The translations under genes were made by a program, and so were the position numbers. A stretch of DNA of 39,807 bases from Candidatus Gastranaerophilales bacterium (GTDB lineage: Bacteria; Cyanobacteriota; Vampirovibrionia; Gastranaerophilales; Gastranaerophilaceae), in assembly GCA_944322625.1 (NCBI GenBank), contig CALUPN010000009.1, positions 1 to 39,807 of the forward strand. Reading direction: 5' to 3'. The notes below the pieces were generated by a model that saw only the letters and a list, made by a program, of their open reading frames with translations, did not search any database and was not told the DNA's origin. Numbering within the stretch: position 1 is the stretch's first letter; the number at the start of each line of letters is the position of its first letter. Below are positions 3,301 through 12,569 of the stretch, piece after piece.

Positions 3301-3430
3301 TGTTTCAGATTTCAGGTAAAATATTTTGAAATTTCGATATAATATTATTGCATTTCAACTTTTTCTTTTGTGATATATTTATATACGGAGAGTAATAAAC
3401 TAGTCGATTATTTAAAAGAAGAAGGTAATT

Positions 3431-4894
3431 ATGAACTGGATAATAACAGAGAATAACAGGAAGATTAATGCGCTTGATATTCCGACAGCTTCTATTGAAG
3501 AAATAAAGTCGGATGTGGAAAAAATGAAAATGAGAGTTATCGGGTTCTTTGGGAAACAAGAATTTGAAAATGTGAGATTATATGTTGTTTTGGCAGACGA
3601 TAAAGTCGGGAAAATATATGTAACTTCTTCGCTGTTTCCGCCTGATGTTAAGTCTTACGAATCTTTTACTCAAAAATTCCCCGCATTTCATATTTTTGAA
3701 AGGGAATTTTATGAAGAATTCGGTATTGAGCCGCTAAATCATCCTTGGCTGAAGCCTGTGAGAGTTAATCAGGATAAATATCCTTTCTTTGAAATGCAGG
3801 GAGAAGATATTCATCAGGTAGCGGTCGGCCCCATACACGCCGGAGTAATTGAGCCGGGACATTTTCGGTTTATGTGTATGGGAGAAAAGGTTTATGATTT
3901 GGAAATAATGCTGGGCTATCAGCACAGGGGAGTTGAGGATTTATTTTTAAAGAATAGAAATTATAATAACAGACTTGCAGAATCTGTCTGCGGTGATACG
4001 GTTATCGGGTATAATATGGCTTATTCTCAAGCAATGGAAACTTTATCGGATACTAAAATCTCTAATAAGGCTCAAATTATAAGACGTGTTGCTCTTGAAA
4101 TGGAACGAATTGCAATTCATATCGGCGATATGGGTGCAATTGCGGGAGATATGGCATATCTTATGGGTGCTTCTATTTTCGGTATAACGAGAACTCTTGT
4201 TATCAATACTATGCTTGAAATCTCCGGAAGTCGTTTCGGGAGAGGGTTAATTAACGTGGGCGGTGTTAATTTTGATATAGATGACAAAATGGCTGATAAA
4301 ATTATTGAAATGCTTGACGGAGTTGCTAAAACCGTTGACAGAACAACAAAAGTTATGCTGAAAAAACCGACTTGTATATCAAGAATGGAAAGAACGGGGG
4401 TAGTAAGCAGCGAAAGCGCAAGAGCTTTAGGAGCTGTCGGAATGGCTGCCCGTTCTTCCGGCGTGGATATTGATTCAAGATTTGATTTTAATGACGGTTG
4501 GTATACTTCACTAGACGTTATAAAACCTTTTAAAGCGACTGGAGATGTTCATTCAAGATTTACTTTGAGGTATAAAGAAATTAAGCAATCTATGCAGATA
4601 GTGAAAAAACTTCTTGCAAAATTAAAAGAATATAAAGATGAGCCGATTAAAATTCGACCAAATCAAAACCTTGCGCCGAATTCTTTTGTCGTATCAATTG
4701 CTGAAGGCTGGCGCGGTGAAATCGTTCATATTGCAATAACGGGAGCAAACGGAGAGTTGTTGCGGTATAAAATGAAAGATCCGTCTTTCAATAACTGGTA
4801 TATGCTGGCTATGGCAGTCAGAAACAACGGAGTCTCTGACTTCCCGTTATGCAACAAAAGTTTCAACTTGTCCTATTGCGGCAATGACTTATAA
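3431..4894 (+). CDS. Energy-converting hydrogenase/complex I-like large subunit (NuoC-NuoD fusion, HycE/HyfG-like) with degenerate NiFe ligands
   Basis: The 487-residue protein is a fusion of a NuoC-like N-terminal domain (about 1-115, with FEREFYEEFGIEPLNHPWLK matching the 30-kDa subunit signature) and a NuoD/[NiFe] large-subunit domain (from GPIHAGVIEPGHFRF; GYQHRGVE). This is the HycE/HyfG layout of group 4 hydrogenases. The metal-site motifs are changed. The L1 motif RxCGxC reads SVCGDT, keeping only Cys187. At the C-terminus the DPCxxC motif reads LSYCGNDL, with only Cys483 in position (another Cys at 474), so two of the four Ni ligands are missing. It is therefore unlikely to be an ordinary hydrogenase and may belong to the 'energy-converting hydrogenase-related' class. 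It is followed 82 nt later by its small subunit. No membrane subunits are present here. Ribosome site AAGAAGG. Confidence 0.82.
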   Translation: MNWIITENNRKINALDIPTASIEEIKSDVEKMKMRVIGFFGKQEFENVRLYVVLADDKVGKIYVTSSLFPPDVKSYESFTQKFPAFHIFEREFYEEFGIEPLNHPWLKPVRVNQDKYPFFEMQGEDIHQVAVGPIHAGVIEPGHFRFMCMGEKVYDLEIMLGYQHRGVEDLFLKNRNYNNRLAESVCGDTVIGYNMAYSQAMETLSDTKISNKAQIIRRVALEMERIAIHIGDMGAIAGDMAYLMGASIFGITRTLVINTMLEISGSRFGRGLINVGGVNFDIDDKMADKIIEMLDGVAKTVDRTTKVMLKKPTCISRMERTGVVSSESARALGAVGMAARSSGVDIDSRFDFNDGWYTSLDVIKPFKATGDVHSRFTLRYKEIKQSMQIVKKLLAKLKEYKDEPIKIRPNQNLAPNSFVVSIAEGWRGEIVHIAITGANGELLRYKMKDPSFNNWYMLAMAVRNNGVSDFPLCNKSFNLSYCGNDL

Positions 4895-4898
4895 CAAA

Positions 4899-4941
4899 AA
4901 TAAGTGACTGCTAATATTTCCTATTAACTAATTCACTTATT
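4899..4941. repeat. 9-bp inverted repeat between the two hydrogenase-like genes
   Basis: AATAAGTGA (4899-4907) is perfectly inverted as TCACTTATT (4933-4941) with a 25-nt spacer; a further partial copy (TTATTCAC) follows at about 4944-4951. It lies wholly within the 82-nt gap of an apparent two-gene operon and could be an attenuating or RNA-processing hairpin. AT-rich background makes chance occurrence possible. Confidence 0.35.
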
Positions 4942-4976
4942 AACTTATTCACATTGAAAACAGAGGTAATTAAAAC

Positions 4977-5717
4977 ATGTTAGATACAATAAAACTAAAA
5001 TATTTTCAAGGAAAACAATATATACCGGATATACCAAACGCTGCTATGCGCAGTCAGTTCAGAGGATTTCCGATTTTAAAACATTGTGAAGGTTGCAATA
5101 TTGATGAAACAGTTTGCCCTACAGGTGCTTTGAAAACAAATCCGCTGTCTGTTGATTTAGGCAAATGTACGCTATGCGGAGAATGTAAATGCGAAGCTAT
5201 TCAATTCAGTAATTATTATAAATTGTCTTCAACAAGCAGAGATAAACTTATAATAACCGAAGGAATGACTCCGGAAGAATTTGAAAAGGCCGCAGTAGAA
5301 GTAAGAAAGGAGATAAAAAGAGTATTTTCAAAATCTTTAAAACTCCGTCAGGTTTCGGCTGCAGGTTGTAACGGATGCGAAATGGAATTAAATGCCTGCT
5401 CAAATTGCAACTTTGATATGGGAAGATTCGGGATTGATTTTGTAGCTTCTCCGAGACATGCAGACGGTATTGTTATAACCGGGCCGATATCAGAAAATAT
5501 GGCTTACGCTCTTGAAGATTGTTATAAATCCACTCCGGATCCTAAAATTGTCATTTTGGCAGGTGCTTGTGCAATTTCAGGCGGTGTCTTTCAAAATTCG
5601 ATAAATTTAAACAGGGAATTTTTGGAAAAATATCCGATTGATTTGTATATTCCCGGTTGTCCGGTTCACCCGCTTACATTTATTAACGGAGTGCTGGATT
5701 TTATTTCCAAAAAGTGA
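4977..5717 (+). CDS. Ferredoxin - NuoB/HycG-like small-subunit fusion
   Basis: This 246-residue protein joins an N-terminal iron-sulfur domain (Cys37, 40, 47 with CP; then Cys64, 67, 70, 72 in CTLCGECKC) to a C-terminal NuoB/HycG-type electron-transfer subunit. The latter keeps the four cluster cysteines in the usual order: CxxC at 131/134 (AAGCNGCE), GAC at 198 and GCP at 228 (YIPGCPVHP), consistent with the proximal [4Fe-4S] cluster. In formate hydrogenlyase-type complexes these are separate HycF- and HycG-like subunits, so the gene is a natural condensation. It would pass electrons between a ferredoxin-like donor and the degenerate large subunit encoded just upstream. The first ferredoxin motif is irregular (CxxC-x6-CP), so whether one or two N-terminal clusters form is uncertain. 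Confidence 0.82.
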   Translation: MLDTIKLKYFQGKQYIPDIPNAAMRSQFRGFPILKHCEGCNIDETVCPTGALKTNPLSVDLGKCTLCGECKCEAIQFSNYYKLSSTSRDKLIITEGMTPEEFEKAAVEVRKEIKRVFSKSLKLRQVSAAGCNGCEMELNACSNCNFDMGRFGIDFVASPRHADGIVITGPISENMAYALEDCYKSTPDPKIVILAGACAISGGVFQNSINLNREFLEKYPIDLYIPGCPVHPLTFINGVLDFISKK

Positions 5718-5730
5718 TATATTCTTAGTC

Positions 5731-6648
5731 ATGCTGTCAGTTATTATACCTACGGTTCAGAAGAAGATTGAGGTTTTGAAAACACTCATAAACCTCCTGC
5801 AAAAAGATTCTTCTGTAGATGAAATTTTTATAATAAATAATAAACCGGAGTTTTCGCTTGAATTCAGCGGTAATAAGTTAAAAATTTATACGCCGGAAGC
5901 AAATATTTATGTAAATCCCGCTTGGAATTTAGGTATTAATAAAATAAAGAATGAAAACTTTGTTTTACTGAATGATGACTTGCTTGTTTGTGAAGATTTT
6001 TGTAAAAGAGTCGTAAATTCGGAGATTTTTAATGATAAAAAGACCGGTTTAATAGGTGTTTATCCGGGTTCTATAACGCAATTTTCCAAGGCAGACAATA
6101 TAGATGTGCCTGAAAATAAGATAAATGCAGAACCTGAGTTTTTACCGCTTGACAGATATCTCGGCACAGGTGACTGGGGGGTTGCAATTTTCGGGAAAAA
6201 ACAAAATTATTATGAAATACCGGAAGATTTAAAAATAATATACGGGGATAATTATTTAATTTATCAAAATATGAAAAATCATAAACAAAATTATTCAGTA
6301 TCAAATTTGCCAATAAATCATATACATTCTTCTTCCAGCGCCAGTCCGGAGTTTTCAAAAATAGTGGCGGAGGATATCTTAAATTCAAAAAAATACTTTT
6401 CTGCAGATAACAGTATTCCTGCTGCGGATATAAATTCTGACTTTAAAATTGAATATCGCGGTAATGTTTGTATAGTTAATTTTACAGACGGTAAAACTTC
6501 CTTATATTTCATGTATCGGAATGATAAAGGAATGCTTCCGGATAAGAAAATAACATTACAGCTTTGTTCACTCATGCCTGACAACAATATGCAGCTTGCG
6601 CTAAAAATTATAAATACAATCAAATCAGACCAAAATAGACCTTGTTAA
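5731..6648 (+). CDS. Glycosyltransferase family 2-like (GT-A fold) protein
   Basis: Starting at the ATG at 5731, the 305-residue protein opens MLSVIIPTVQKKIEVLKTLI, the first strand and helix of GT2 enzymes, continues with VDEIFIINNKPEF and NPAWNLGINKIKNENFVLLNDDLLV, where NDD takes the place of the metal-binding DXD, and contains YLGTGDWGVAIFGKK, a possible acceptor-site region. An in-frame extension upstream would overlap the preceding gene and adds no plausible sequence. No ribosome site is evident. It begins 13 nt after the hydrogenase-like small subunit, so it may be read through from that operon, although the function is unrelated. The C-terminal third (from ~220) is not recognisable. 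Activity and sugar donor are unknown. Confidence 0.7.
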   Translation: MLSVIIPTVQKKIEVLKTLINLLQKDSSVDEIFIINNKPEFSLEFSGNKLKIYTPEANIYVNPAWNLGINKIKNENFVLLNDDLLVCEDFCKRVVNSEIFNDKKTGLIGVYPGSITQFSKADNIDVPENKINAEPEFLPLDRYLGTGDWGVAIFGKKQNYYEIPEDLKIIYGDNYLIYQNMKNHKQNYSVSNLPINHIHSSSSASPEFSKIVAEDILNSKKYFSADNSIPAADINSDFKIEYRGNVCIVNFTDGKTSLYFMYRNDKGMLPDKKITLQLCSLMPDNNMQLALKIINTIKSDQNRPC

Positions 6649-7054: not shown

Positions 7055-7169
7055 ACGTTAATATTTTGTTACAATTTAGCAAATAAATTTGTTTTGGGAT
7101 TTTAAGTAAATTATAATGTTAAATACAGTACAAAATTTTAACCCAATAATAATTAGGAATTCGGATACT

Positions 7170-8942
7170 ATGAAAAAACAATTAAGTTACTTAATCGCAG
7201 CAGTTTGTCTTTTAGCGGCAGGAAAGGCTTTTGCAGATCCGGGGGTAATGCTTCCGGCGCAGGTTCAGGCAGAGATGGGCGGATATAACCCGGGTGCTTA
7301 TAACACAACCGAGATGCAGAATATTAACCACTATCAGATTGATAAGAGTTATATTCAGTCTTTTGATGACGTAACAAAAGATGAACAGATATATGATGCT
7401 TCTATTGAAGAAAATCAGGCTCGTGAGGGTATGTTATATAACCCGCACTTTTTACTTCAAAAAATAAATTTTGAAGGTAATACAAAAATTTCATCTGAAG
7501 AGTTAGAAAAACTCGGTTTAGAAGTTTTGGGCGAAGATATTTTCTTTGATGAATTGTTGGAAGTATGCCAGAAAGTAACAAATTATTACCGTTCAAAGGG
7601 ATATTTGACATCTTATGCAACAGTTCCGCCGCAGAGAATTGTGGATGGTGTTGCAACTATTAAAATTATTGAAAGTAAAGTCGGTTCTCTTGATATAGAA
7701 GGTGAAAAATGGACAAGAGAATGGTACTTAAGACATATAATTATGGGAAAAGCAGGGCTTAGAGAAGGCGATGTATTTAACGCTAAAAACCTTCAAAGAG
7801 CAATGAAAGAAATTAACCGTGAGGATTATGTCCAGGTTCAGACCGAAGTCGAAAGAGAGCAGGAAGGCGATGAAAATACTGCAATTACCTTAAACGTAAG
7901 AGACAGATTTCCGGTTAACCTGAACTTCTCATATGACGATTACGGCCGTTCTTATACCGGAGCTCAAAGAGTTTCATTCCTTGTTGGTATGGATAATTTA
8001 ACAGGTCTGGGGGATAAGATATACGGCGGTACAATTTTATCATCAGGTGCAACAGGCTGGATGGCAGGCTATTCGCTTCCGGTATCATCCTATGGAACCA
8101 GATTATCGTTCGATTTTTCTGACTCTCACGTTAGATTAGGCGGCCCTTATAAATCTTTGAATGTAAAAGGTAATGCTCAGAGTTACTTCTTTAAATTAAC
8201 CCAGCCATTAATTCAAACTGCAAAGACTGATTTAATATTCTATACCGGCTATGACTATGTAAATGCCAATACATCCGCTACTATAGCAGGTAATCCGTTA
8301 AGACTTTCTACATATAACTTGAATGTATGGCGTTCAGGATTGTACGGTATGACAGATGATAATTACGGTCGTTGGATTGGTAATTTAGGGGTTGACTTTG
8401 GTATGGGCGGTGACGGCCACGGAGCAATTCAGGATACAACATTCTTTAAAGTTACTGCCGGCGCAACCCGTGTTCAAAGATTATTCGGAAGAAGTATGGG
8501 TATTGTAAGAGTCGGCGGTCAGTATTCACCAAACAAATTGTTTGCAGCCGAACAAATGCAGATGGGCGGTCCTTATACATTAAGAGGCTATCAGCCGGCT
8601 GAATTAATCGGTGACTATGGTGTAACAGGTACGGTTGAATATCGTTTCCCGATTCCGTTCTTAGACAGATTATGGCCTAAAGTGGATGAAAGAATAAGGC
8701 TGGCTGTATTCTACGATTGGGGCTGGTTAGGTGAAAACGGTAATATCTATAATTATCCGCAGACATTCTTACATTCGGTTGGTTTCGGTACTTATATTAA
8801 CTTTACCGATTGGCTGACGGCGCAAATAGGTGTAGGCTTCCCTCTCGGACGTTCGTATGACGAGAATACCGCAAGATTTTACTTTAGTGTAAACTCTGAT
8901 TTGGACAGACTAATTCCGCTCAGAAATCCGGAAAAATTATAA
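7170..8942 (+). CDS. TpsB/ShlB-type two-partner secretion transporter (Omp85 superfamily)
   Basis: The 590-residue protein is an outer-membrane transporter. It has a signal peptide (start ATG at 7170: MKKQLSYLIAAVCLLAAGKAFA; an in-frame ATG 18 codons upstream would bury it). Next come a ~70-residue linker, a ShlB-type POTRA (~95-170, LLQKINFEGNTKISSEELEK...YRSKGYLTSYATVPPQ) and a second POTRA (~172-250, IESKVGSLDIEGEKW). The remainder is a beta-barrel of alternating amphipathic strands. The lid-loop signature appears as TLRGYQPAE, matching the [VT]RGY of FhaC/ShlB. These proteins secrete or insert large beta-helical TpsA partners. No TpsA gene is next to it. It has a good promoter upstream and a strong terminator directly after the stop. 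A general Omp85 role cannot be excluded. Confidence 0.87.
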   Translation: MKKQLSYLIAAVCLLAAGKAFADPGVMLPAQVQAEMGGYNPGAYNTTEMQNINHYQIDKSYIQSFDDVTKDEQIYDASIEENQAREGMLYNPHFLLQKINFEGNTKISSEELEKLGLEVLGEDIFFDELLEVCQKVTNYYRSKGYLTSYATVPPQRIVDGVATIKIIESKVGSLDIEGEKWTREWYLRHIIMGKAGLREGDVFNAKNLQRAMKEINREDYVQVQTEVEREQEGDENTAITLNVRDRFPVNLNFSYDDYGRSYTGAQRVSFLVGMDNLTGLGDKIYGGTILSSGATGWMAGYSLPVSSYGTRLSFDFSDSHVRLGGPYKSLNVKGNAQSYFFKLTQPLIQTAKTDLIFYTGYDYVNANTSATIAGNPLRLSTYNLNVWRSGLYGMTDDNYGRWIGNLGVDFGMGGDGHGAIQDTTFFKVTAGATRVQRLFGRSMGIVRVGGQYSPNKLFAAEQMQMGGPYTLRGYQPAELIGDYGVTGTVEYRFPIPFLDRLWPKVDERIRLAVFYDWGWLGENGNIYNYPQTFLHSVGFGTYINFTDWLTAQIGVGFPLGRSYDENTARFYFSVNSDLDRLIPLRNPEKL

Positions 8943-8947
8943 TTTAA

Positions 8948-8983
8948 AAAAAGAACCCGATATTTAAATATCGGGTTCTTTTT
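8948..8983. terminator. Strong bidirectional intrinsic terminator
   Basis: A perfect 18-bp inverted repeat (GAACCCGATATTT / AAATATCGGGTTC core) flanked by A-run on the left and T-run on the right. It lies between the convergent TpsB gene and the tandem CheW gene and can terminate both. Confidence 0.92.
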
Positions 8984-8993
8984 AATATATCTG

Positions 8994-9995
8994 TTACATA
9001 TCCGTAATAATAATTCTTTTATCAGATGTGATTTTATCGATATTAAGGATAGTGTAAAGAGAGTCATTATATATAAACTCATTTGAAAAGTATCCGTCTC
9101 CGGGTTCTAATAAATCATTATCCATAAATTCAAATAATTCGTTAATTTTATCTATTAATAATGCAAGTTTGAGTTCATTACACTTTACTATAATGACAGG
9201 TTTTTTATCCGGAGCGATTCCTGCTTCCAGTCCTAAAAATTTTTTTAAATTGATAACAGTAATATAATCACCTCGGAGGTTCATTATGCCTTCAATAAAA
9301 TCGGGAATCCCCGGAACTTTAGTTATTGAAGTATCCTTCAAAACCTCTTTTACAAAATCCAGTGCTATACAATAAGAATCGTTATTTAGATTAAACGATA
9401 TATATTTATTTTTTGCGTGCAACTCGCCGGAGGCAAGTTTTAAGCTGGACTTGTCCGCAATAGCGAGAGTTCTTTTGGTCATAATTGATTTAGACTCTTC
9501 ATCCTGCGGAAATAATGAGATAATATCAACATCCGCCCAACGGCTGTCATGCTGTTTCAGCAGATTTTCTATTGCGTATATATTAATAATAAAAATGGTT
9601 TCCTGATTAAATTTATAGAGTGAATCAATAATCATCTTATTATCAACGAACGGAATTGCGTCCATCTGCGCGGTATCAAAAGGAAGAATACCTATTACTT
9701 TATCTGTAATTATTCCGAAAATTACTTCGTCTGTTTTGACTATCAACAGTTCGTTATGTGTTGTATAAGGAGGTACCTCTATGTTTAAATAGAACCTAAT
9801 ATCAACAACATTAATAACAAAATTGTTGTATTTTAAAAGTCCGACAATATTATTCGGGAGTTTCTGCGGATAGTCTAAAGCCGGCAGTTTCATAATTTCA
9901 AGTATGTTATCGGAATTTATCGCATACTTATTTTCACCTGTTTGAAAATACAGATGAGTATTTTTCTTTTGTTCAATTAAATTACTGCTGCTCAT
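8994..9995 (-). CDS. Tandem CheW-domain coupling protein
   Basis: The 333-residue protein has two CheW domains. The first (~10-150) begins LYFQTGENKYAINSDNILEI and includes NNIVGLLKYNNFVINVVDIR. The second (~195-325) begins YISFNLNNDSYCIALDFV and includes IEGIMNLRGDYITVINLKKF, the classic CheW core. CheW links receptors to CheA; a tandem version could bridge two array positions. I start it at the ATG at 9995, which overlaps the end of the GGDEF gene by 14 nt, indicating translational coupling; a longer in-frame start at 10046 would lie deep inside that gene. It is transcribed away from, and presumably works with, the MCP and CheA genes on the other strand. Confidence 0.88.
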   Translation of the reverse strand: MSSSNLIEQKKNTHLYFQTGENKYAINSDNILEIMKLPALDYPQKLPNNIVGLLKYNNFVINVVDIRFYLNIEVPPYTTHNELLIVKTDEVIFGIITDKVIGILPFDTAQMDAIPFVDNKMIIDSLYKFNQETIFIINIYAIENLLKQHDSRWADVDIISLFPQDEESKSIMTKRTLAIADKSSLKLASGELHAKNKYISFNLNNDSYCIALDFVKEVLKDTSITKVPGIPDFIEGIMNLRGDYITVINLKKFLGLEAGIAPDKKPVIIVKCNELKLALLIDKINELFEFMDNDLLEPGDGYFSNEFIYNDSLYTILNIDKITSDKRIIITDM

Positions 9996-11439
9996 AGAGT
10001 ACAACCCTGTTTCTTCCGCTCTCCTTAGCTTTGTATAAAGCTTCATCTGCGGATTTTAATATGTCTGCCGGAGTATTAAATTCCGGATAGTTCATTGTAA
10101 GCCCGATACTTACGGTAACTTTTGCTTTTACGTTATTATAATCAAAATCGTATTCTTCAACCATTCTTCTGAGTCTTTGAACCGGAATAATAGCTCCTTC
10201 TATATTTGTTTCCGGCATAATCATGACAAGCTCTTCTCCGCCGTATCTGTATAGAAGGTCTGTTTTTCTGAATGCAGATTTCATTAAATCTGCGACGGTT
10301 TTTAAGACATAATCGCCGTATTGGTGACCGTATGTATCATTAACTTTTTTGAAGAAATCGATATCCAGAATAGCAAGGCTGAAATCTGAAGGGTGACGCT
10401 TAGTACGGTTGTGTTCTTGTTCCAAACTGATTTCGAACTGTCTCCTGTTATATAGTCCGGTGAGTCCGTCAAGAACCGACATAAATTCTTTTTCTGTATA
10501 TTGATATTTCATTTTGAATATGGCAAGCAGTTCGCTTATCATAATGTCGAAATATCTGAAAGATGCATAATCCATATCCTGACGTGTATAGAAACAAATT
10601 CCGCCGATGAGTTTTTTATCAAAAATTAACGGTATGATAATTTTTGATCTTAAATCTGTAAATTGATACTCAAGTTCTTTACCCAGAAGAATTCTAACTA
10701 CTTCAAATTTGGTATTTTTAAAGTTTCTGAACTCTTCCATTTTTCTGAAAAAATCATATTGTATATCAGAAAGAAGATTTTTGCTTAAATTTTTCCCGAG
10801 AGTATCAATGTATAAAATATTTTCGGCAAAATCATCAGGAGAAGCGAAAAATACGCCGGCTACGCTATATTCTACAAAAGAACTCAAAAGTGAGAATAAT
10901 TTCTCAACAAGAACTCTTTCATAATTCAAAAAGTCGCTTAAGTTTCTGAATTCATTTGCAAATACCGACTTTAGCAGCAAATCGTTCAGAATCGTGTTTA
11001 AGCGTGTCTGAGCTACATTATCTGATTTAGACTTAAGAGCCAGCGTTGTTTTATATTCCTGCGTAAGAGGATATCTTCTTAGAGTTGCATTAATATTTCT
11101 TACCAGTTCGTCCATGTTAATGGATTTAGATAGGAAAAGCTGCGCGCCTGCTTTTTTCCCCCAGAAACTGTCTATTTTTTTATCAAGAACCGTGAGAAGT
11201 ATTACGGGAATTTTTTTTGTTTCATCAACGTTTTTAATCATTCTGCATAGCTGGTAACCGTCAATTACGGGCATCAAAATGTCTGAAACAATTATATCCG
11301 GAATGTATTCAAAAACCTTTTTATATGCTTCTGCGCCGTTAACTGCGGTTTCCACTTCAAAACCGTTCTGAATAAGCCCGTCTTTAAGGAATTTCAGTTG
11401 TGTTTCACTATCTTCTACCAATAAAATCTTTGATGTCAT
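9982..11439 (-). CDS. Response regulator with GAF-like middle and GGDEF diguanylate cyclase domain
   Basis: The 485-residue protein has an N-terminal receiver domain (1-~125, phospho-acceptor Asp53 in IIVSDILMPVIDGY, acidic pair at Glu9/Asp10, conserved Lys in FLSKS), a GAF-like segment (~150-310), and a GGDEF domain. The active-site motif is GGEEL (~400-404), and RKTD sits exactly five residues before it, the standard RxxD product-inhibition site. It should therefore make c-di-GMP when phosphorylated and be feedback-inhibited. This matches the WspR/PleD type of output. It precedes the tandem CheW gene with a 14-nt overlap and is divergent from MCP-CheA, which would supply the phosphoryl group. 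Start ATG 11439 has AGGA upstream. Confidence 0.92.
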   Translation of the reverse strand: MTSKILLVEDSETQLKFLKDGLIQNGFEVETAVNGAEAYKKVFEYIPDIIVSDILMPVIDGYQLCRMIKNVDETKKIPVILLTVLDKKIDSFWGKKAGAQLFLSKSINMDELVRNINATLRRYPLTQEYKTTLALKSKSDNVAQTRLNTILNDLLLKSVFANEFRNLSDFLNYERVLVEKLFSLLSSFVEYSVAGVFFASPDDFAENILYIDTLGKNLSKNLLSDIQYDFFRKMEEFRNFKNTKFEVVRILLGKELEYQFTDLRSKIIIPLIFDKKLIGGICFYTRQDMDYASFRYFDIMISELLAIFKMKYQYTEKEFMSVLDGLTGLYNRRQFEISLEQEHNRTKRHPSDFSLAILDIDFFKKVNDTYGHQYGDYVLKTVADLMKSAFRKTDLLYRYGGEELVMIMPETNIEGAIIPVQRLRRMVEEYDFDYNNVKAKVTVSIGLTMNYPEFNTPADILKSADEALYKAKESGRNRVVLYEQQ

Positions 11440-11522
11440 ATATTCCTGTATTCCAATTTTGTTAATTTTAGTATAAAATAATTATATAATAAATACTTAA
11501 AAAAAACTATAGGAGAGATGAC

Positions 11523-12569
11523 GTGCTTAATGAATGGAATTTTGGATTAAAACAGAAGTTTAATATTAAATGTATAATAGATATGGTGGTATTTGTATTC
11601 GCCTGTGTTTTATTTTTGTTTTTTGCAAAAATCAACCGTGTTGCGCCATATGAAACATTTGTGTTTTTGGTTGTTATTATTGCTTTAAACGCAACCGCGC
11701 ATTTTATCACAAAACAGTGGATTGTTAGAGCTATAAAGAAGTCTTATACCGTACAATCGGATTCGTTAACGGAAACTACAAATGAAATTATGGATACAAT
11801 AAACTCTCAAAAACGTATTTTTGAGACACTGTCTGCAAATACAAAAAATATTTCCATGTTAATAGAAAAGTTGAAAACGCTTTCGGAAGATTCGGTCACA
11901 ACGTCTAAGAATACTGAAAAGCAGGTAAGCCAGTCAATCAGTTTTTCGGAAAAAGAACACGAAGCAATTTCTGCAAATGCCGATAAAATGCTTGTTTTGA
12001 GGCAAAAAATCCAGATGATTGCAGAGCTTATACTGGAACTATCCGAACATTCCCAGCAAATCGGTAATACTATAGGAGTGGTTGATGACATAGCGGAACA
12101 GACGAACATGCTTGCTCTGAATGCTGCGGTAGAAGCTGCTCGTGCAGGAGAACACGGAAAAGGTTTTGCGGTTGTTGCTGGTGAAATCAGAAAACTTGCA
12201 GATGAATCAAAACAGGCTATTACGAAAATTACATCTCTTACAAGCAATATTCAATTTACAACGAATTCTACCGTAATGGCAACGGAAGAAGGCTCTAAAG
12301 AAATTGAAGCTGTTGTTAAAGATATTAACGCTGTATCTTCTAACTCCGAAACGCTTCTCAATTTGATTAAAGAGATTTTGGATTCTCTGGATGCCCTAAA
12401 TCAGAATGCAAAGAAGCAAAATGATATTATTGAAAGATTAAATATTATAGATGAGGAAAATTCCGGAATAGCGGAAAGCTTAGTTCAGGCAATGGCATCA
12501 AACAGTGAAAGAATTGCAAAACTAAACAGTTTGTCTAACGATATAAAGCAATCTGCAATTGAAAGCTAG
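11523..12569 (+). CDS. Minimal methyl-accepting chemotaxis protein (membrane hairpin, no periplasmic sensor)
   Basis: The 348-residue receptor starts with GTG at 11523, preceded by AGGAG. Two adjacent transmembrane helices (about 19-40 and 48-66) are joined by only about 7 residues (NRVAPYE), so there is no periplasmic ligand domain. I see no HAMP domain; a long coiled coil follows directly. The signalling tip is well conserved ([20 protein letters not shown], then [21 protein letters not shown]) near residues 185-225 and would bind CheW and CheA. It is followed 15 nt later by cheA. No cheR or cheB is nearby. It probably senses a membrane or intracellular state, or surface contact, rather than a soluble ligand. 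Confidence 0.9.

Follow-up and report, generated by a model that had tools for sequence, protein, structure and literature searches.

The gene pair at positions 3,431 to 5,717 of the window, a 39,807-nucleotide stretch of a draft genome of Candidatus Gastranaerophilales, very probably encodes the peripheral arm of a six-subunit membrane complex of the energy-converting hydrogenase-related (Ehr) type, the genes of which lie at two separate loci. The preliminary description of this DNA had rightly pointed to the Ehr complexes as relatives. The assignment is based on the gene set and on the lost [NiFe] ligands, the tree containing Ehr sequences of this lineage only. This kind of complex is already known, since the available part of one paper describes a six-subunit enzyme annotated as a NiFe hydrogenase, without hydrogen-binding motifs and beside an 11-subunit complex I, in gut Melainabacteria (Di Rienzi et al., 2013; PMC3787301), and that of another describes Ehr complexes in four Melainabacteria (Matheus Carnevali et al., 2019; PMC6349859). 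As far as these parts go, the complexes agree with ours in lineage, in the number of subunits, in the missing NiFe motifs and in the 11-subunit complex I alongside. They differ in that the operon of the window is split and that ligands of the outer cluster are lost, neither of which is mentioned there. In the literature searched, we found no report of the split, of the reduced cluster set or of the near-exclusion between Ehr complexes and [FeFe] hydrogenases described below.

Gene 5 of the complex (3,431–4,894; all features of the window given here lie on the forward strand) encodes the large subunit, a NuoC-NuoD fusion of the HyfG/HycE type with 487 amino acids and no NiFe site, which matched the Pfam families Complex1_49kDa (E 1.2e-37) and Complex1_30kDa (E 6.3e-6). 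Gene 6 (4,977–5,717) encodes a fusion of a HyfH/HycF-like ferredoxin with a HyfI/NuoB-like small subunit (246 amino acids; Oxidored_q6, E 1.2e-27). The order first described, a NuoC-NuoD fusion followed by a ferredoxin-NuoB fusion, is thus borne out by the open reading frames, by Pfam and by NCBIfam, which also confirmed both fusions. In sequence, the pair comes nearest to the solved structures of the membrane-bound hydrogenase MBH and of the E. coli formate hydrogenlyase. The large subunit, modelled with AlphaFold2 (pLDDT 87.8, pTM 0.90), found its best fold match in E. coli HycE (7z0s_E, TM 0.85); the small subunit gave a less confident model (pLDDT 76), which was left out of the geometry. 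The TolC-like and GT2 neighbours of the pair had been named correctly. The GT2-like gene (5,728–6,648) lies outside the complex; in relatives it belongs to the flank that normally follows the six-gene operon, and the gene of a ShlB/FhaC-like outer-membrane protein (7,116–8,942), likewise a usual downstream neighbour, marks the ancestral locus.

Membrane subunits had been reported as missing. This is true of the locus, but the genome does contain their genes. HyfB-, HyfC-, HyfE- and HyfF-like genes are located on contig C24 of the same genome at about 7,058–12,157. The gene at 9,046–9,960 shows 88% identity to the HyfC-like gene of a relative, and the other membrane genes lie at 7,265–8,548, 10,021–10,725 (86%) and 10,721–12,154 (83%). 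Compared with E. coli, the proteins reach 36% (HyfB), 28% (HyfC), 25% (HyfE) and 36% (HyfF), and the best NCBIfam matches were subunits B, E and F of hydrogenase 4. The charged and histidine residues of antiporters are conserved in the HyfB-like (E142/K221/K252/H344/H348/K352) and HyfF-like proteins (E143/K232/H343/H347/E406). Antiporter-like membrane subunits, a mark of Ehr complexes, are therefore encoded both in this genome and in the operon of its relatives.

The orthologous loci, which stem from Candidatus Gastranaerophilales, i.e., gut Melainabacteria, have a fixed order of HyfB-, HyfC-, HyfE- and HyfF-like genes followed by the two genes of the window, and in about 50 of the 55 orthologues the six genes form one operon. 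It is still joined in L084, which is sister to the window sequence in the tree and 94% identical to it. The preliminary description had itself named complete operons with membrane subunits in close relatives, encoding ordinary complex I or hydrogenase, as evidence against its reading. Such operons exist, but their product is neither a complex I of the ordinary kind nor a functional hydrogenase. Upstream of the membrane genes on C24 lie genes for SpoU, a CDP-alcohol phosphatidyltransferase (CDP-OH_P_transf) and GFO/MocA, as in L066, L074, L076 and L081, and downstream of the pair in the window follow GT2, a small open reading frame and the ShlB-like gene, the usual downstream flank of the operon. 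With the upstream flank and genes 1–4 on C24, and genes 5–6 and the downstream flank in the window, the loci indicate that a rearrangement broke the ancestral operon apart between gene 4 and gene 5 and moved the four membrane genes elsewhere in the genome. Genes similar to murD and murG now stand behind gene 4; at this locus (L055, G000:C24, 7,058–13,580) the membrane genes end 100 bases upstream of the murD-like gene, which has the same direction. Since the genome is a draft of 156 contigs, the split could be a mis-join; genome G011, however, shows the same two halves, with the membrane genes on its contig C154.

Genes 5 and 6 are separated from gene 4 in four of the 55 loci (window, L063, L064 and L067), and no breaks between other genes of the set were seen among the 55. 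Two further candidates were revised: L097 was downgraded from a full split, as only a short insert separates its genes 4 and 5 (one of 55 loci), and L102 proved to be joined, the overlapping open reading frame being spurious. In all five separated loci, L097 included, gene 5 is preceded by a block of about 65 conserved bases, which includes an extended -10-like core, TTTTGTGnTATATTT, and the leader is shared as well (window 3,348–3,430; L063 7,920–8,000; L064 7,890–8,000; L067 1,900–2,018; L097 6,800–6,899). In the window, the block and the 5' leader of the large-subunit gene read TTGCAT...TTTTGTGATATATTT...GGAGAGTA...CTAGTCGATTA...AGAAGG, with an exact match of the core at 3,366. The block probably acts as a promoter of gene 5 in its own right, and its occurrence in the separated loci is apparently a new detail. 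We rejected the idea that it had been copied from the promoter of the operon (local alignment score 40, compared with a mean of 34 and a maximum of 54 for shuffled sequences). The block is absent from the joined loci except for a partial trace in L077, where the 69-base gap between genes 4 and 5 contains the leader fragment TAGCC..CCGATTA..ATTAGTTTTGAAA, which suggests either a deletion that re-joined the genes or an insertion in the ancestor. On the large-subunit tree the separated loci do not form one group, so that repeated breaks compete on equal terms with one early insertion followed by re-joining, and with exchange by recombination.

The large subunit lacks the two NiFe-binding CxxC motifs of group 4 [NiFe] hydrogenases. 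One cysteine is left in the L1 region (Cys187, 3,989–3,991) and one near the C-terminus (Cys483, 4,877–4,879), as already noted from the sequence. The alignment with E. coli HyfG confirmed this, placing Cys187 at the first Cys position of the L1 motif and Cys483 at the second of the L2 motif; the second position of L1 is occupied by Thr/Ser190 (Thr190 in the window) and the first of L2 by Leu480. The chain ends four residues past Cys483, compared with 35 residues past the CxxC in HyfG, and a cleavable C-terminal maturation tail is not retained. The reported lack of hydrogenase maturation genes extends beyond the locus: HypD was found in none of the 37 relatives, this genome included, while the positive controls gave matches. 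Glu141 (3,851–3,853) is invariant in the 55 orthologues and stands at the position of MbhL E21, the proton-transfer glutamate (PMC7684303). Compared with hydrogenase 4 and formate hydrogenlyase of E. coli (HyfB-I, HycC-G), the complex is homologous in HyfB, C, E, F, G and H+I, and HycE is its best fold match, but it has no NiFe ligands, maturation tail or Hyp genes, no HyfA, HyfD or formate dehydrogenase, and its H and I subunits are fused. In this genome, neither an [FeFe] hydrogenase nor HypD nor a molybdopterin oxidoreductase was found. Formate dehydrogenase, proposed as the Ehr partner in other lineages, was rejected in this role, as no molybdopterin oxidoreductase occurs in the 37 relatives.

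The small subunit has kept the four cysteines of the proximal [4Fe-4S] cluster listed in the preliminary description, Cys131 and Cys134 in a hydrogenase-type CNGC motif, Cys198 and Cys228 (5,367–5,660). All four are invariant in 58 orthologues, and the CNGC motif aligns without gaps to MBH and HycG. In the ferredoxin domain, Cys47, Cys64, Cys67 and Cys70 (5,115–5,186), also invariant in 58 orthologues, are the binders of the inner cluster according to the standard 2[4Fe-4S] ligand pattern. The remnant of the outer-cluster motif (5,085–5,105) consists of Cys37, Cys40 and Asp43, the last replacing the third cysteine, so that the motif of the window reads CxxCxxD and is one ligand short; the second motif is shortened, with Cys72 as a possible further ligand. 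The first three outer-cluster ligands are complete in just six of the 58 orthologues. The ferredoxin domain has thus lost most ligands of the outer cluster and kept all four of the inner one, a detail that is apparently new. We take the inner cluster to be N6b and the outer one N6a, an assignment transferred from NuoI-type proteins generally and not from a structure of this protein. The loss of the outer cluster could alternatively mean that the donor is not ferredoxin.

A ferredoxin-to-acceptor ion pump is a reasonably likely function of the complex, with donor, acceptor and ion inferred. Electrons from reduced ferredoxin would reach the proximal cluster by way of the inner, N6b-like one, and an acceptor other than H+ or a quinone of the complex I type would be reduced in the cavity beside the former NiFe site. 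This reduction would drive ions through the two antiporter-like subunits. The four membrane subunits made from the C24 locus would join the two products of the window, a joint assembly that we infer from homology.

It is rather unlikely, although still a reading to be weighed, that the complex works as a complex-I-like ferredoxin:quinone oxidoreductase. The two have NuoC/D/B/H/L/M-type folds in common, among them a HyfC/NuoH-like subunit, and the genome encodes a UbiA-family prenyltransferase (L166, G000:C22, 632–1,630) with weak MenA-like matches. However, the positions of the quinone-site residues His38 and Tyr87 of NuoD are occupied by Ile140 and Thr190, and the proximal cluster is bound by the CxxC motif CNGC in place of the adjacent Cys pair of NuoB in complex I. 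In addition, the genome contains a separate 11-gene complex I operon on contig C17, the NuoD of which keeps both H38 and Y87.

A comparison with MBS/MBX of Pyrococcus leads to a further alternative, a sulfane-sulfur or polysulfide reductase in which ferredoxin would reduce S-S bonds at the proximal cluster while ions are pumped. Here, too, two of the four NiFe cysteines are left, equal in number and apparently in position to MbsL C85 and C385 (PMC7684303), the equivalence of Cys187 and C85 being drawn from the aligned ranges and this paper and not from a direct alignment with MbsL. Both complexes are without NiFe, and the complex I quinone residues H38 and Y87 are absent from both. MBS, however, needs a loop shortened by three residues and a proximal cluster with three cysteines, whereas the CNGC motif of the window is intact and its four ligands are invariant. 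The glutamate equivalent to MbhL E21 is missing in MBS but invariant here as E141. We therefore consider such a reductase improbable.

The distribution of the complex was surveyed across the genus in 65 genomes (handles of the survey genomes, G000–G079). The Ehr large subunit was present in 37 of them and an [FeFe] hydrogenase in 30: 33 genomes had Ehr only, 26 had [FeFe] hydrogenase only, four had both (G024, G029, G030 and G036) and two had neither, these two being 74% and 78% complete. With the 65 genomes counted as independent and their kinship ignored, the near-exclusion has a Fisher p of 1.2e-11. Mapped on the RpoB tree, which covers 43 genomes, each of the two labels needs only three to four changes, and the exclusion pattern therefore rests on few events. 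If the ancestor had both systems, at least two losses of each have probably occurred. The near mutual exclusion of Ehr complex and [FeFe] hydrogenase in the genus, resting on few independent events, is apparently new. A tentative suggestion would be that in the genus Ehr replaced the [FeFe] hydrogenases in taking up electrons from ferredoxin, each lineage keeping one of the two systems. Cells like this one, in which no hydrogenase was found, would then conserve energy with a pump that oxidises ferredoxin without making H2, has a shortened cluster chain and has its peripheral arm under a promoter of its own. Two genomes with [FeFe] hydrogenase contain partial Ehr operons (G016:C87 and G017:C85), in which the search flagged a stop in gene 4 (G016) and in gene 3 (G017), so that they are possibly decaying copies.

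The same survey bears on a proposal made for this lineage by Di Rienzi et al. (PMC3787301), namely that the complex runs in reverse and an ion gradient drives the reduction of ferredoxin. Relatives of complex I are reversible in principle. However, the [FeFe] hydrogenase that is said to need this ferredoxin is missing from most genomes bearing the complex, and there is no obvious subunit for a high-potential donor, which makes the reverse direction a doubtful candidate.

The preliminary description had preferred a soluble or separately assembled ferredoxin-dependent oxidoreductase of two subunits, possibly with a changed metal site on Cys187 and Cys483, a reading that we now regard as highly improbable. 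The locus itself does contain two genes only, and the window and most relatives have both cysteines. Yet the membrane genes occur in the same genome and are linked to the pair in nearly all relatives; the pair therefore belongs to a rearranged operon and not to a soluble module. Cys187 is replaced by Ala, Asn or Thr in 10 of the 55 orthologues and Cys483 by Ser in seven, so that neither is a required ligand. In MBS of Pyrococcus, both leftover cysteines (C85 and C385), their apparent equivalents, were mutated with the activity intact and take no part in catalysis (PMC7684303). The drift of the two cysteines in the family, the absence of HypD and the loss of the cleavable tail make a new metal site on them unlikely, and the MBS mutants also speak against it.

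Both genes of the window are under strong purifying selection. Between the window and its three nearest relatives, dN/dS is 0.044–0.051 for the large and 0.026–0.045 for the small subunit, and these values (0.026–0.051) lie within the range of pairs of joined loci (0.017–0.093). A decaying relic without function is scarcely credible: the NiFe site and the outer cluster have lost ligands and the operon is no longer intact, but dN/dS is about 0.03–0.05 in both genes after the split, the inner and proximal cluster ligands are invariant and the leader block is conserved.

The question of the Ehr substrate bears on the step that separates hydrogenases from complex I. Should Ehr complexes and [FeFe] hydrogenases indeed nearly exclude each other, this would be a first genomic handle on the role of Ehr, as an alternative outlet for ferredoxin, and Gastranaerophilales whose genomes carry a NiFe hydrogenase annotation may produce no hydrogen whatsoever. 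The loss of the outer cluster would be a natural experiment on the minimum of clusters that an electron path requires.
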